A DNA stretch of 64,000 nucleotides from Blastomonas sp. GTDB lineage: Bacteria; Pseudomonadota; Alphaproteobacteria; Sphingomonadales; Sphingomonadaceae. A program made the position numbers and the translations under genes. The notes beneath the pieces were generated by a model that made no database searches, was not told where the DNA came from, and worked only from the letters and a program-made list of their open reading frames with translations. Of the stretch, positions 58,847-63,787 are shown piece by piece. The stretch covers positions 1 through 64,000 of the forward strand of contig NZ_JAUCZC010000009.1 of the NCBI RefSeq assembly GCF_030373265.1. Reading direction: 5' to 3'. Positions within the stretch are counted from its first letter, which is position 1. The number at the start of each line of letters is the position of its first letter.

Positions 58847-59794
58847 ATGGCGCTGTCTCCCACCCCTTCTGCCACGCAAGCCACCGACCCCATCGGTCCG
58901 CCGGTTCACCGGCCGCTGTTTGCAATCCTGACGCGTCTGGTCGCGGCGCTGTGCCTGACCGCGATGTTCGCCTGCGTCAAGATCGCCTCGACCCGCGGCG
59001 TGCATGTGCTCGAAAGCGTGTTCTACCGCCAGCTGACCGGGCTTGCGCTGATGATCCCGGTGGCCTTCGCAGGTGCGGGGATTGCGGCGCTGAAGACATC
59101 GCGGCCCTGGACCCACGCCGCGCGCATGGCGGTGGGCCTCACCGGCATGACGCTCAACTTCCTGTCGTTCACCTTGCTCCCCATCGCCGAAGCCACTGCG
59201 ATCGGCTTCATGGTGCCGATCGTCGCGACGTTGCTGTCGGTGATATTGCTCAGCGAAGCGGTGGGCCTGCACCGCTGGGCGGCGATCGCGCTGGGGCTGG
59301 TCGGGGTCTTCGTCGTCATCCAGCCGGGCGATGGCCATATTCCCTTGAACGGCGCGCTGGTCGCACTGGCGGGCGTCGGGGTCACGGCGTGGGTCAGCAT
59401 CCTGATCCGCAAATTGGGCGAGACCGAAAAATCGGTGACGACGATGTTCTGGTTCTCGCTGACGTCGCTGTTTCCATTGAGCATCGCGATGCTGTTCGTC
59501 GGTCAGCCGCATGATCTGGAAACCTGGGGCATCATCGCCCTGATCAGCGTGTTCGGCGCCGCAGCGCAGCTGGCGATCACATCGTCGCTGCGCTTCGCGC
59601 CGGTATCGGTGGTGCTGCCGATGGACTATTCCAGCCTGATTTGGGCGGCACTCATCGGCTATGTGATCTGGGACCGCTGGCCGGTGCAAGCGACATGGTT
59701 CGGCGCACCTTTGATCATCGGGTCGGGGCTGTACATCGTCTGGCGCGAACACCGCCTTTCGCGGCCGCCGCGCCAGAGCGTTCAGCCGACCTGA
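58847..59794 (+). CDS. EamA-family (DMT) transporter
   Basis: 315 residues, ten helices in two EamA repeats; the first ends with GLTGMTLNFLSFTLLPIAEATAIGFMVPI and the second with APVSVVLPMDYSSLIWAALIGYVIWD. A small-molecule exporter, substrate unknown. Its 3' end overlaps the opposite acyl-CoA ligase gene by 13 bases. Confidence 0.86.
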   Translation: MALSPTPSATQATDPIGPPVHRPLFAILTRLVAALCLTAMFACVKIASTRGVHVLESVFYRQLTGLALMIPVAFAGAGIAALKTSRPWTHAARMAVGLTGMTLNFLSFTLLPIAEATAIGFMVPIVATLLSVILLSEAVGLHRWAAIALGLVGVFVVIQPGDGHIPLNGALVALAGVGVTAWVSILIRKLGETEKSVTTMFWFSLTSLFPLSIAMLFVGQPHDLETWGIIALISVFGAAAQLAITSSLRFAPVSVVLPMDYSSLIWAALIGYVIWDRWPVQATWFGAPLIIGSGLYIVWREHRLSRPPRQSVQPT

Positions 59795-61365
59795 CGCTCG
59801 CGGCCCTGCCAATAGGGCTCGCGCAGCGACCGGCGCAGGATCTTGCCGGTGGCGTTGCGCGGCATCTCTGGAATGACATCGATCGTCTTGGGCGTCTTGA
59901 ACGGCGCGATCCGCTCGCGTGCCCAGGCGATCACCGATGCCGGATCGACCTCGTGCCCCGGCTTGGCCACCACAACGGCCTTGACCGCCTCGCCCCACTT
60001 CTCGTCGGGGATGCCGATCACCGCGACCTCGAGCACATCGGGATGGCCAAAGATCGCGTTCTCGACCTCGGCGGGATAGACGTTCTCGCCGCCCGAGATG
60101 ATCATGTCCTTCACCCGGTCCTGGATGAAGACATAGCCGTCATCGTCCATATACGCCGCATCGCCGGTGCGCAGCCAGCCATCGGCGTCGACCGTCTCGC
60201 GGGTCTTGGCCTCGTTGCGCCAGTATCCCACCATGTTGAGCGGCGACCGCGTCGCAATCTCGCCGATCGTGCCGTTGGGCACCGGGTTGCCCGCGCCATC
60301 GACGATACGCACCTCGACCCCGGGCAGGGCCTTGCCCGCCGAGCGCATCCGCTCGTTGCCAGCTGGATCGTGATCCTCGGGCGGCAGCGCGCAGAAGGTG
60401 CCGGTGGTTTCGGTCATGCCATATTGCTGGCAGAAATCGGCGCCCATGGTCTGCATGCACTGGCGCAGCAGCTCGAGCGGGATCGGCGCTGCGCCGTACA
60501 TCACCAGCTTGAGCGGGGACCAGTCGGTGCTGGCGGCGCGCGGGTGGTTGACCACCATTTGCAGCGCGGTCGGCACCAGGAACATATGGGTCACGCCATC
60601 GGCGACGCAATCGAGCACCGCATCGGGCGAAAACTCGGCGCGGATCACCGCGCGGCAGCCGTTGTAGAACGCGATCGTGCCGACGCCCGAGCCCGCGATA
60701 TGCGCCACCGGCATGATCACCAGCATCGAATCCTCGTGGTTGATCTTATACCAGTCGACATCGGACGCCTCGATAATGGGGCGCAGGCCGAACATGTTGC
60801 GGTTGCACAGCACCGCGCCTTTGGGATTGCCGGTGGTGCCCGAGGTGTAGAGTTGCAGCACGCCCCTGTCGGGATCGGCCTCGGGCAGGTCGCCCTCGGG
60901 TTGCGCATCGACCCAGGCCTCGAACGATTTCAAATCGGCGGTATCGGCATCGCCCTCGACCAGCGTGTGACGCAGCGATCCCAGCCCCTTGCCCGCGGTG
61001 GCGCCCAACCCTGCGCAGGTGCTCTGGCACACAACCAACGCGGCGCCGGTGTCTTCGAGGATATAGCGCACCTCGGGCACCGCGAGCCGCCAGCCGACGG
61101 GGACCATCGCCAGCCCCGCGCGCGAGGCGGCGACCAGCAGGATGAAATAGAGGCTCGCGTTCTTGCCCAGCCAGGCAATCCGCTCGCCGGGCCGCAGCCC
61201 AGCGCCGGCAAAGGCGCGGGCGTAGCGGTCGACCAGCCCGTCGAGCTCGCGATAGGTGATGCGCTGGACGCCGTCATCCAGCGCGATGCCCTCGGGACGT
61301 TCGTGCGCCCAATAGGCAATGGTCGATCCCAGATCGGTGCGCGCGAGCGCGGTGGTTGCCAGCAT
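59782..61365 (-). CDS. AMP-dependent acyl-CoA ligase
   Basis: 527 residues from the ATG at 61365, preceded by GGAGAGA. Motifs: LYTSGTTGNPKGAV (P-loop), YGMTETTGTF, GWLRTGDAAYMDDDGYVFIQDR, and the C-terminal lysine in PRNATGKILRR. It forms an acyl-adenylate and then an acyl-CoA, typically from a medium/long-chain fatty acid. The exact substrate is unknown. Confidence 0.9.
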   Translation of the reverse strand: MLATTALARTDLGSTIAYWAHERPEGIALDDGVQRITYRELDGLVDRYARAFAGAGLRPGERIAWLGKNASLYFILLVAASRAGLAMVPVGWRLAVPEVRYILEDTGAALVVCQSTCAGLGATAGKGLGSLRHTLVEGDADTADLKSFEAWVDAQPEGDLPEADPDRGVLQLYTSGTTGNPKGAVLCNRNMFGLRPIIEASDVDWYKINHEDSMLVIMPVAHIAGSGVGTIAFYNGCRAVIRAEFSPDAVLDCVADGVTHMFLVPTALQMVVNHPRAASTDWSPLKLVMYGAAPIPLELLRQCMQTMGADFCQQYGMTETTGTFCALPPEDHDPAGNERMRSAGKALPGVEVRIVDGAGNPVPNGTIGEIATRSPLNMVGYWRNEAKTRETVDADGWLRTGDAAYMDDDGYVFIQDRVKDMIISGGENVYPAEVENAIFGHPDVLEVAVIGIPDEKWGEAVKAVVVAKPGHEVDPASVIAWARERIAPFKTPKTIDVIPEMPRNATGKILRRSLREPYWQGRERQVG

Positions 61366-61459
61366 GTCTCTCTCCAAACACGTGTGACGGGCCGTTTCGA
61401 CCCTGCCGCTTACGCGGGCAGGCTAGGCGGAATGCGGGCGGCTTGACAATAGAATTGCG

Positions 61460-61530
61460 TCAAACCCGGCGATAGACCAGCGACAGGGTGTCGGTGGGCA
61501 TCGCGATCAGCACCGCGGTGGAAAGCCGCC
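61460..61530 (-). pseudogene. 3'-end relic of a DUF938 methyltransferase gene
   Basis: On the minus strand this segment reads STAVLIAMPTDTLSLVYRRV then stop. The intact DUF938 gene 1.1 kb away ends TSRHAMPANNLTLVYRKRSA. In DNA, 61470-61505 and 62578-62613 agree at 26 of 36 positions by hand count. Only the last 20 or so codons are present and there is no start. It is therefore the displaced or decayed end of such a gene. Confidence 0.65.
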
Positions 61531-61539
61531 CCACTCCTC

Positions 61540-61632
61540 ATCGTCACCCCGGACTTGATCCGGGGCCCAGAGCGATCACGTGCGCTGCCTGGAATTAAAA
61601 CCCTGGGTCCCGGGTCAAGCCCGGGATGACGG
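61540..61632. repeat. Palindromic intergenic repeat in inverted copies
   Basis: CGTCACCCCGGACTTGATCC near 61542 and the mirror form GTCCCGGGTCAAGCCCGGGA near 61607, ending ATGACGG at 61632. This motif (CATCCCGG-TTGA-CCGGG type) is a common alphaproteobacterial repeat. It borders the AT-rich island. Confidence 0.65.
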
Positions 61633-61770
61633 ATAAGGTGGGCTGGCAGCCAAGGGGCCAGTGAAAGGGTGTCCGGCTTTGGCAGAATTGATCCGATAGC
61701 TGCCCGACCGGATTTGGATAGCTACCGATGCATCGGGAATGGCTGTTTTTAGGTGGTTACCGGACAATCA

Positions 61771-62358
61771 TCAGTCTATAACTTGTTCACGAGAGCTTTC
61801 GGCCTTGCTCCGCCTGCATCTCCATATCGCCAGCGTCATCCCTCCTAGCGGGACCGCGAGCAGCACGAGTAGCCAATCGCGCACCTCCCAGAACACGAGC
61901 ATGTTCATGAAGGTGTGTAATCCGAAGCACAGCGTAAACTTAAGCAGGGGCTGAGGTGGCCGAGGAAACGCGTATATTGCGGCAGTCAAGGTGTGAAAGA
62001 ATAGTGCGGGAATTGGCAGGAGAGCCTCGGATACCGAATTTATCCCAACGTCATTCTCCCAAAGCATTATCAACGGTTTAGAAAGTGCAAGCTCATAAAT
62101 ACCAAAAAGAGCGATGACAGCGAAAGTGTTCTGCGGGATCTTGTAGGTTTTCCCAGCCACAATCTTAAGAAGCTCTTCGAAGAAAGCTGCACTCATCACT
62201 AGCGCTACGGTCCTGATGGTCGTGCCTCCTGCATCTATCATGGCTATTTCGAGCGAGATCTGCGGAATTGCGACCACAAGCCCGCCCCTATGAAGTAGAC
62301 CGTAGCTGTTTTTAAAAAGCAGATTCTGTTGTTGCTCCTGCGTGTTGCATAGAGCCAT
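61771..62358 (-). CDS. PrsW-like membrane protein, probably frameshifted
   Basis: 195-residue frame with five or so hydrophobic helices. It has AAFFEELLKI (E-E-x-x-K), FFHTLTAAIYAF and GLHTFMNMLVFW, the three motif areas of PrsW-type intramembrane proteases. GC is low (23 of 60 bases at 62041-62100). The first 25 codons (CNTQEQQQNLLFKNS...) look like an out-of-frame read: another frame upstream (62244-62435) encodes a hydrophobic N-terminus that joins this one if one base is re-read near 62283-62290. It is therefore likely a frameshifted or pseudogenised gene of foreign origin. Confidence 0.55.
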   Translation of the reverse strand: MALCNTQEQQQNLLFKNSYGLLHRGGLVVAIPQISLEIAMIDAGGTTIRTVALVMSAAFFEELLKIVAGKTYKIPQNTFAVIALFGIYELALSKPLIMLWENDVGINSVSEALLPIPALFFHTLTAAIYAFPRPPQPLLKFTLCFGLHTFMNMLVFWEVRDWLLVLLAVPLGGMTLAIWRCRRSKAESSREQVID

Positions 62359-62435
62359 GCTAGAAATGCCAAGATCCCGAGCGAGAACGTAATTAGTGCC
62401 GCCAATTGTCCCACCTGCTTAATCGAGTTGAACAA
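62244..62435 (-). pseudogene. Frameshifted N-terminal part of the PrsW-like gene
   Basis: This frame starts with a TTG at 62435 and reads two hydrophobic segments (LAALITFSLGILAFLAWLYA and ATVYFIGAGL), then runs on in a wrong frame to a stop at 62244. If one base is re-read in GGGGCGGGC (62283-62290) the frame continues into IPQISLEIAMIDAGG of the 61771-62358 gene. There is no ribosome site before the TTG, and the codon two before it is a stop, so the true start may be lost. Confidence 0.5.
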
Positions 62436-62561
62436 AATCTATCAACGCGCGCGATCGCCCCATTCCACAAGAAGTCGAATGTCAGCAATGGGGTCGCTTG
62501 CCGAACGGCAGCTTGTTTCTCGCAGCTATCACAAGCCGACATAGCAACGATTCAACTCGCG

Positions 62562-63206
62562 CTACGCCGAACGCTTCCGATAAACCAGCGTGAGATTGTT
62601 GGCTGGCATTGCGTGGCGGCTGGTGCGCGCGAAGCCATGGTCCGATGCGACGCGATCCATGTCATCGAGGTGGCGCAGGCCCCATGCCGGGTTTCTCGCC
62701 TTGAGCGAGTCATCGAATGCAAGATTGGAGGCTGTCGTCTCCACGCCTTCCTCGAGATAAGGCCCATAGAGAAGGATGGGCGCCTCATCCGCGAGTGCCT
62801 GCGCGCAGCCCTTGAACAATCCCAGCGTCGCATCCCACGGGCTGATATGCACCATGTTGATGCAGATGATGGCGTCGGCGCTCTCGATCGGCCAGCCGGG
62901 CTGCGCGGCATTGATCGGCAGAGGCGGCCGCACATTGGATGCGCCCGCTTGCGCAGCCCAGGCCGCGATCGAGGCGAGCGCGGCGGGTTCGCAATCGCTG
63001 GGCTGCCAGACGAGGTGCGGGAAGGCTTGCGCAAAATGCACGATATGCTCGCCGCTGCCGCTGGCGATCTCGAGTACATTGCCGGTGGCGGGCAGATGGT
63101 CGCGCAGCACCTCGGCGATCGCGTCGCGGTTGCGCAGGGTGGCAGGCGCATGGCGGCGCGCTTCTGCGCCTGCCTCGTCGATCAGCCAGGGTTTTGGGTC
63201 GGTCAT
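62562..63206 (-). CDS. DUF938 SAM-dependent methyltransferase
   Basis: 214 residues from the ATG at 63206 (MTDPKPWLIDEAG). Class I methyltransferase fold with SAM motif VLEIASGSGEHIVHFA, DCEPAALASI and ADAIICINMVHISPW, ending MPANNLTLVYRKRSA. Substrate unknown. The last 15-20 codons have a lower-GC codon style than the rest and have a diverged second copy at 61460-61530. Divergent from the ICMT-like gene (83 bases). Confidence 0.88.
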   Translation of the reverse strand: MTDPKPWLIDEAGAEARRHAPATLRNRDAIAEVLRDHLPATGNVLEIASGSGEHIVHFAQAFPHLVWQPSDCEPAALASIAAWAAQAGASNVRPPLPINAAQPGWPIESADAIICINMVHISPWDATLGLFKGCAQALADEAPILLYGPYLEEGVETTASNLAFDDSLKARNPAWGLRHLDDMDRVASDHGFARTSRHAMPANNLTLVYRKRSA

Positions 63207-63289
63207 CGAGCGAACCATGCCGCGATATCGGCTACCGCGCAATCGGGCAGCTTGCCACAGCCGATGCGAGCCGCCACGGTGGCCCGATC

Positions 63290-63787
63290 ATGCAAGACGA
63301 ACCGCCTCAGTTGCCGCGCATCGATGCCAGCATCGCGCCATCGGTCGGCTTTCCGCCGCCTCTGGTGTTCCTGGGCTTCATCCTGCTCGGGCTGCTCGCC
63401 GACCGGGTGCTCGGCCTTCCGGCGATGCCGATCAGCCGCGATATCGGCTGGATCGGCTTTGCGCTGATGATGGCGGGGATTGCGGTGCTGATCGTCTCGC
63501 TCGGCATGTTCCGCGCCTATGGCGAGAACCCCGAACCGTGGACGCCGAGCCAGGCGATCATCGCGCGCGGGCCCTATCGGCACAGCCGCAACCCGATGTA
63601 TCTGGCGATGGTGATCATCCATATCGGCTATGCGATCTGGGATGCGAGCGCGGGTGTGCTGCTGTTCGTGCCGTTCGCGTTCATCGCCATCGACCGCGCG
63701 GTGATTGCCAAGGAAGAGACATACTTAACCCAGAGATTTGGCAAGCCGTATCAGGATTATTGCCGCCGCGTGCGCCGCTGGCTCTGA
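63290..63787 (+). CDS. Isoprenylcysteine-carboxylmethyltransferase-family (ICMT/PEMT) protein
   Basis: 165 residues from the ATG at 63290; the longer frame upstream is rejected because it runs across the divergent DUF938 gene. Four hydrophobic helices, with the SAM-binding motif GPYRHSRNPMYLAMV and the C-terminal EETYLTQRFGKPYQDYCRRVRRW. Bacterial relatives methylate lipids or small molecules; the substrate is unknown. Confidence 0.87.
   Translation: MQDEPPQLPRIDASIAPSVGFPPPLVFLGFILLGLLADRVLGLPAMPISRDIGWIGFALMMAGIAVLIVSLGMFRAYGENPEPWTPSQAIIARGPYRHSRNPMYLAMVIIHIGYAIWDASAGVLLFVPFAFIAIDRAVIAKEETYLTQRFGKPYQDYCRRVRRWL

Follow-up and report, generated by a model that had tools for sequence, protein, structure and literature searches.

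Organization of the DUF938 locus

The DNA analysed is a single stretch of 64,000 nucleotides (the window) from a Blastomonas genome, G000 in our numbering. In it, a gene for a DUF938 methyltransferase-like protein is followed on its own strand by an AT-rich island, a stray second copy of its 3' end and a CoA ligase gene. The genes and gene parts are as follows.

59782..61377, minus strand: AMP-binding CoA ligase, a conserved neighbour that adjoins DUF938 in genomes with an empty locus
61460..61531, minus strand: native 3' end of DUF938 in displaced position, roughly its final 22 codons
62562..63206, minus strand: DUF938 methyltransferase-like gene, a mosaic (ORF and Pfam PF06080, E 6e-67)
62562..62867, minus strand: foreign-type replacement 3' part of DUF938 (identities and C-part tree)
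62868..63206, minus strand: native-type 5' part of DUF938, reaching codon ~126 of a 226-aa ORF (identities and N-part tree)
63290..63787, plus strand: PEMT/ICMT-type methyltransferase, the conserved neighbour on the other side

The protein of the intact gene covers the full Pfam DUF938 profile (1-202 of 202, E 6e-67). Its start is taken as the ATG of position 63206, although a TTG at 63242 could give a longer gene, and its terminus, AMPANNLTLVYRKRSA, lies at 62562 on the minus strand. An earlier note on this DNA had described orphan DUF938 C-terminal codons near 61460 in the same orientation as the intact terminus at 62562, and both are there: the orphan, which is a trimmed copy of the native end, reads AMPTDTLSLVYRRV and a stop that ends at 61460, again on the minus strand. 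The two ends, on the same strand, agree at 27 of 36 bases, one more than the 26 given before; when 200,000 pairs of 36-mers were drawn at random from the window, none reached 26 matches.

The low-GC island reported between the two ends was likewise found, with 38.3% GC at 62041-62100 and 50.2% over 61757-62489, against 64.9% over the window. Only 4 of 1266 windows of 700 bp (step 50) fall to 51% GC or below, all of them within the island. The two DUF938 termini do bracket it, as had been said, but they do not form the edge of the event, since the foreign part begins at about 62867, near codon 127. A repeat bracketing the island was also considered as that edge and rejected, the repeat search having returned just one 12-base pair.

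Empty and filled states among Blastomonas genomes

We compared nine Blastomonas genomes (G000 to G008), all of which share the order PEMT - DUF938 - CoA ligase - EamA - acyl-CoA dehydrogenase. In five of them (G003, G004, G006, G007 and G008) the locus is empty, and a DUF938 gene of native type stops about 90 bp before the adjoining CoA ligase gene; it is the only one there, as the earlier note had predicted for an empty site. The remaining four are filled, with inserts extending 1032 bp (G000), 1424 bp (G001), 478 bp (G002) and 922 bp (G005) past the DUF938 stop. Each of the four carries a foreign DUF938 3' part and, beyond the insert, a partial native 3' end.

Alignment of DUF938 from the nine genomes revealed an N-terminal part that is alike in all and, after the motif CINMVHIS, another sequence that the four filled genomes have in common. 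In filled genomes the gene is vertical to about codon 126, and the last ~98 codons are of foreign type. For the N part, identity is 68-79% between filled and empty genomes and 73-83% among empty ones; the C part of the window gene is 53-64% identical to the five native genes, and identity among the four filled genomes is 79-95%. The transition can be followed along the alignment: up to position 80, filled-to-empty and empty-to-empty identities differ by at most 6 points, and at positions 121-150 they stand at 40% and 66-80%, with 74-77% from filled to filled. Positions 81-110 are variable (filled-to-empty 51-53%, empty-to-empty 65-68%, filled-to-filled 54-57%), and this imperfect fit of the N part, where filled genomes also differ among themselves, counts against the mechanism proposed below. 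In G002, 96 displaced native DUF938 codons follow the insert and start at about the place where the foreign part starts, which locates the break in the middle of the gene; G002 is the only genome to have kept both junctions at codon ~127.

Phylogeny of the two gene parts

A tree of three flanking proteins placed G002 as sister to G003 (support 0.928) and united G000, G001 and G005 in one clade (1.000). The DUF938 N-part tree gave the same two groups (0.845 for G002/G003 and 0.944 for G000/G001/G005). In the C-part tree, the displaced G002 fragment paired with the native 3' part of G003 (0.968). The filled genomes' functional C parts came together in one group (0.936), which included a further fragment, at G001:C6, and stood beside a sequence of another genus (0.918). 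These placements indicate that the native DUF938 end was displaced and that a foreign-type end took its place. Because G003, the sister of G002, is empty, there were either two insertions or a single one that G003 later lost cleanly.

The empty and filled genomes and the trees support the inference in the earlier note of an inserted element that brought its own terminus and pushed the old one away; the site, which had been put at the 3' end of the gene, instead falls at codon ~126-128. The note had also offered a decayed tandem duplicate as an alternative. An old DUF938 paralogue decaying in place would explain why a second fragment, of 96 codons, lies downstream in G002, yet that fragment begins at the very codon where the foreign part starts and groups with the native G003 gene, whereas it is the 3' part of the intact gene that is foreign; moreover, the five empty genomes carry one native gene each. 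As the two parts of the gene differ in phylogeny, we rejected this explanation, which is hardly credible.

The insert and its cargo

Between the two DUF938 ends lies a cassette with a single cargo gene, described by the following features.

61757..62489, minus strand: gene cassette, the AT-rich island (no DNA match in G001/G005, where the flanks match; GC 50.2%)
62244..62435, minus strand: N-terminal part of the cassette membrane-protein gene, first frame (alignment with an intact 214-aa homologue in G417)
61771..62358, minus strand: C-terminal part of the same gene in the other frame, a 195-aa ORF

The slot holds a different cargo in each of the four filled genomes: in the window, a membrane-protein gene in two frames; in G001, a GDPD-family protein (Pfam E 2.7e-15); in G002, a homologue of a 95-aa membrane-type ORF from another genus; and in G005, a 170-aa protein that matched nothing in Pfam. 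Among G000, G001 and G005, three different cargos thus occupy the same slot between matching flanks, and neither G001 nor G005 has DNA matching positions 61770-62476 of the window, although the flanks match on both sides. Comparison of the genomes shows the insertion into DUF938 and the exchange of cargo genes.

The membrane-protein gene of the window looks frame-broken. Its two frames overlap and an intact homologue of 214 aa exists in G417, a pattern that a decayed gene or a sequencing indel would give. The search for the island in other genomes that had been suggested earlier recovered cargo homologues in 2 of 396 other family genomes (G417 and G005). Neither the window ORF nor its intact homologue matched Pfam or NCBIfam above cut-off; the cargo may resemble PrsW/CPBP-type membrane proteases. 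Comparison with plasmids gave no match to the window insert.

The earlier note saw no integrase, and we found no integrase-like ORF on the inserts of G000, G001 and G005, the 478-bp insert of G002 being too short for one; the window insert also contains no IS91-type transposase ORF. Of the proposal that the island is the remnant of an integrative element, the insertion with a replaced gene end holds, but what the insert carries is a gene cassette lying between repeated sites.

A recurrent site of about 111 bp

The cassette is bounded by copies of a site that we modelled over 114 positions from aligned copies lying between neighbouring genes. In the window, these elements are as follows.

62480..62540, minus strand: half-site (model positions 51-111), cassette entry (nhmmer E 1.6e-8; earlier model E 4.7e-7)
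62490..62496, minus strand: left core CGACCCC, left edge of the cassette (coordinate and edges of shared cassettes)
61752-61756, minus strand: right core CCACC, at the cassette exit
61645..61753, minus strand: full-length site (model positions 2-110), cassette exit (nhmmer E 1.4e-7; earlier model E 0.0024)
61518..61644, no strand assigned: REP-like repeat (GGGTCCCGGGTCAAGCCCGGGATGACG type) joined to the right-hand site (matches G000:C44 and C15)

The window was searched with a profile built from 66 other copies, its own sites lying outside the training sets. Two sites flank the window cargo, and no third was found below E 0.2 in the 64 kb, the next best match having E 0.24. The E-values for the window sites, and those given below for joined IS flanks, G001:C6 and the arsC slot, refer to the small sets searched. 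Positions 61518-61756 match G000:C44 at 84%, a match that stops at the cassette core (61756), and positions 61523-61735 match C15 at 85%. The right-hand site and the REP-like repeat form one recurring unit, present at G000:C44 and in part at C15.

The model copies came from following up the DUF938 finding, and the counts describe this particular model. With the best 150 candidates per genome scored, all nine Blastomonas genomes contain the site at E 0.01, with at least 10-47 matches each; with the best 25 scored in each of 149 sampled family genomes, at least 28 genomes from at least 21 of 96 genera contain it at E 1e-6. The fetched loci yielded 301 profile matches, redundant and non-independent since loci overlap, and the same sequences reversed yielded none. 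A first left-edge pattern, the motif after the foreign DUF938 stop with at most 2 mismatches, had occurred at 3-12 places per Blastomonas genome against 0-2 for its backward control; with 3 places against 2 in G000, this pattern alone is uninformative there. A first right-edge pattern, searched in G000 only, was dropped (4 places against 2 for the backward control). Among the matches listed are contiguous, empty-looking sites, for example L213 1558-1469 (E 6e-14) and L208 1553-1647 (E 5e-11).

RNAalifold found no consensus structure for 66 distinct aligned sites; a seed alignment of nine copies forms a hairpin with little covariation. Rfam returned no match to the site in the 12 loci examined, and a known structured RNA was rejected as its identity.

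Cassettes between neighbouring sites

We counted neighbouring sites 150-2600 bp apart in 46 loci, setting aside 5 overlapping pairs, 1 closer and 6 farther. The two sites share a strand in 47 pairs and face opposite ways in 5. The 47 same-strand intervals measure 155-2469 bp (median 529), and 46 of them contain an ORF of at least 60 aa, which alone is no proof of a gene; 32 of these ORFs run on the site's own strand and 14 on the opposite one. One cassette in G001 (L133 2744-3049) encodes a barstar-like protein on the opposite strand (Pfam E 7.9e-9), and several other cassette ORFs look like small lipoproteins. When a three-site stretch of G008 was compared with plasmids, it matched one Blastomonas plasmid, over 106 bases only.

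Three pairs of near-identical cassettes (97.2-99.1% identity) lie in different species and neighbourhoods, at 98.3% over 407 bp, 99.1% over 535 bp and 97.2% over 393 bp, and their flanks differ beyond the edges. On the left, two of the three start at CGACCC, and the third alignment begins 22 bases earlier (17 of the 22 agree). On the right, two pairs end 1-2 bases past CCACCC, and the alignment of the first pair runs about 14 bases further, through a conserved motif. The G002 slot cassette has a counterpart in another genus (G098), with 79% identity over 365 bp; their alignment opens 6 bases ahead of CGACCC and closes inside the motif that follows the right core. Of the seven pairs compared, three are less informative: G001/G001 and G008/G003 share site sequence, and G001/G006 reach only 79.6%. 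Sequence comparison shows near-identical genes at different locations, their edges lying at or close to an ACCC core.

The cassette edges share this core and part of the arms. At right edges the mean upstream-arm score is -5.9, compared with -13.6 in shifted controls; 18 of 52 arms score above the controls' 95th percentile. The window's own edges score 10.6 and -9.9. That edges are alike only in part, with the right-edge arm of the window near the control mean of -13.6, argues against the mechanism favoured below.

Tandem single-gene units, sites mostly on one strand and of near-constant length, the same cassette in different places and sharp edges all recall an integron-type array. We therefore weighed a CALIN with very divergent attC sites and an integron integrase supplied from elsewhere. 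Integron core motifs are RYYYAAC/GTTRRRY, and no such pair occurs in the site consensus, where the ACCC core stands in direct repeats; the 66 aligned sites have no common fold, the units are dispersed over the chromosome, and none of the nine genomes has an integron integrase (IntI, TIGR02249) above cut-off. A CALIN of this kind is highly improbable. Of three integron features tested, sharp-edged tandem cassettes were found, and the integron integrase and a foldable attC were both lacking; for that reason we would not file the cassette system as an integron.

A candidate recombinase on IS91-type elements

Matches below cut-off to other tyrosine recombinases occur in all nine Blastomonas genomes and in all 14 control genomes. 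G005 contains two kinds of multicopy element, present in 7 and 8 copies, and both encode a tyrosine recombinase alongside an IS91-like transposase ORF. The transposase of the first matches NF033538 above cut-off (E 3e-129); the models closest to its recombinase are those of XerA (E 1e-54) and IntI (E 3e-52), each matched below cut-off. These elements lie in loci L178-L190, and the type with a 329-aa recombinase (IS329) sits at the site core in most copies.

When the flanks of IS329 were joined, a match to the site spanned the joint for 6 of the 8 copies (E <=5e-5); one further copy matched weakly and one not at all. In five of the six, the match of the right flank stops beside the core, at model position 93 or 94, and in the sixth it stops at 89. 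For the 316-aa type, CGACCCA was read in the left flank about two bases from the element in 6 of 7 copies, but joining the flanks gave back a site in just 1 of 7. Of the 149 family genomes, 7 contain relatives of the 316-aa-type recombinase, and 4 of these belong to the at least 28 with sites, a co-occurrence that is suggestive only (one-sided Fisher p 0.024). At E 1e-30, no relative was found in G000, G006 or G008, though all three carry sites.

Because IS91-type elements occupy the site core in G005, we infer that the best candidate for the catalyst is an XerA/IntI-like recombinase encoded with an IS91-type transposase on multicopy elements of a sister species. The window copy is probably immobile now, as its cargo is in two frames, one flank has decayed and G000 has no close relative of the candidate recombinase.

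The same elements raise the question of whether IS91-type rolling-circle transposition itself moved neighbouring genes, the sites being its targets or ends. Elements with a tyrosine recombinase do sit in the sites of G005, at the same core as the cassettes. However, one-ended transposition leaves one edge fixed and the other variable, and the cassettes have two precise edges. The IS91-family elements carry genes of their own, whereas the cassettes have none for movement, and relatives of the recombinase reach 7 of 149 family genomes against at least 28 of 149 for the sites. We regard such transposition as a very unlikely source of the cassettes. IS329 might be a parasite of the site, a point that weighs against the mechanism set out below.

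A second slot and a detached DUF938 end

The site also occurs upstream of an arsC-like gene. In seven of the nine Blastomonas genomes, a half-site from model position 42-53 lies ~55-65 bp upstream of this gene (only weakly matched in two of them, at E 2e-4 and 0.0015), and a closing half-site, positions 1-49/50, is present in G002, G004, G006 and G008. The arsC slot gives a second unit boundary, at model position 50|51, which goes beyond what one simple recombination explains and is a further point against the mechanism. Loci L234, L237, L238 and L241 represent this second recurrent cassette slot. Weak displaced second fragments of the arsC 5' end were detected in G008 (E 4e-4) and G002 (E 1e-3).

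At G001:C6 (L040 7483-7800), a foreign-type DUF938 3' part lies away from DUF938, beside a small cassette ORF. It sits between site positions 1-54 and 70-110, an arrangement that resembles the junction of a circular unit.

Both observations bear on a Campbell-type homologous integration, in which a foreign DUF938 3' part and a cassette would have entered by a single crossover near CINMVHIS, the sites being uninvolved in that step. The break indeed falls in a conserved stretch of DUF938, G001:C6 joins the foreign 3' part to a cassette end as a donor circle would, and the arsC-like gene too has its weak displaced 5' fragment (G008 and G002). This route nevertheless has to accept that the same codon was probably hit twice, G002 being sister to the empty G003, and arm homology leaves the exchange of cargo at the core unexplained, the arms differing in near-identical pairs. 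We consider homologous integration unlikely.

Proposed mechanism

We consider the following account probable. As comparison of the genomes shows, a segment was inserted at codon ~126-128 of DUF938 and brought a single-gene cassette between sites; such cassettes would move as circles by recombination at the core. Most likely, an element bearing a DUF938 3' part and a cassette inserted at codon ~127; the reading frame ran on into the foreign part, which replaced the last ~98 codons and left DUF938 open. The native 3' part remained beyond the insert, whole in G002 and trimmed in the window. In the clade of G000, G001 and G005, it was cut to about 22 codons, and the REP-like repeat now adjoins the right-hand site. 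Later, cargo was exchanged at the core sites, placing different genes in the same slot.

The cassettes would move as circles through site-specific recombination at the ACCC core, catalysed by a tyrosine recombinase encoded away from the DUF938 locus; both the circles and the recombinase are inferred. As the maker of the crossover within DUF938, a site-specific integrase is a candidate only, and the cassette site gives no reason why a DUF938 3' part should be on the unit.

Comparison with known systems

Prophage e14 in icd of Escherichia coli, a 15-kb prophage with a displaced region of 163 bp (PMC6379469), offers a parallel for the DUF938 end. In both, an insertion into a protein gene comes with an element-supplied 3' end and leaves the old end displaced at the far side. 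The features of this kind of event, namely relatives with an empty site and, on the two sides of the insert, a hybrid gene and a displaced native end, are all present at DUF938. Unlike e14, the DUF938 insert extends only 0.5-1.4 kb past the stop and holds a single cargo gene but no recombinase; the part of DUF938 that was replaced amounts to ~98 codons, and its replacement has a divergent source.

The pdif/Xer modules of Acinetobacter plasmids are small gene modules between dif-like 28-bp sites, on which a cellular or external tyrosine recombinase acts. They resemble the cassettes as small modules between recombination sites; the site described here is longer, at about 111 bp. In the literature covered, which consists of the beginnings of abstracts and leaves most subscription journals outside, no account of such cassettes in Sphingomonadales was found.

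Implications

The repeats around the DUF938 insert mark what looks like an unnamed gene-cassette system across a bacterial family. Tentatively, and with somewhat less than even confidence, we suggest that Sphingomonadaceae possess a cassette system distinct from integrons, with an ACCC core, a non-folding site of ~111 bp, an XerA/IntI-like recombinase accompanied by an IS91-type transposase, and core genes rebuilt as mosaics. The site model enables genome-wide catalogues of cassettes and a direct test of the recombinase. If the proposal is true, cassette traffic can rewrite half of a conserved gene while leaving its frame open, and common environmental bacteria shuffle small genes by a mechanism that integron searches would miss, because integron integrase and foldable attC are both absent.
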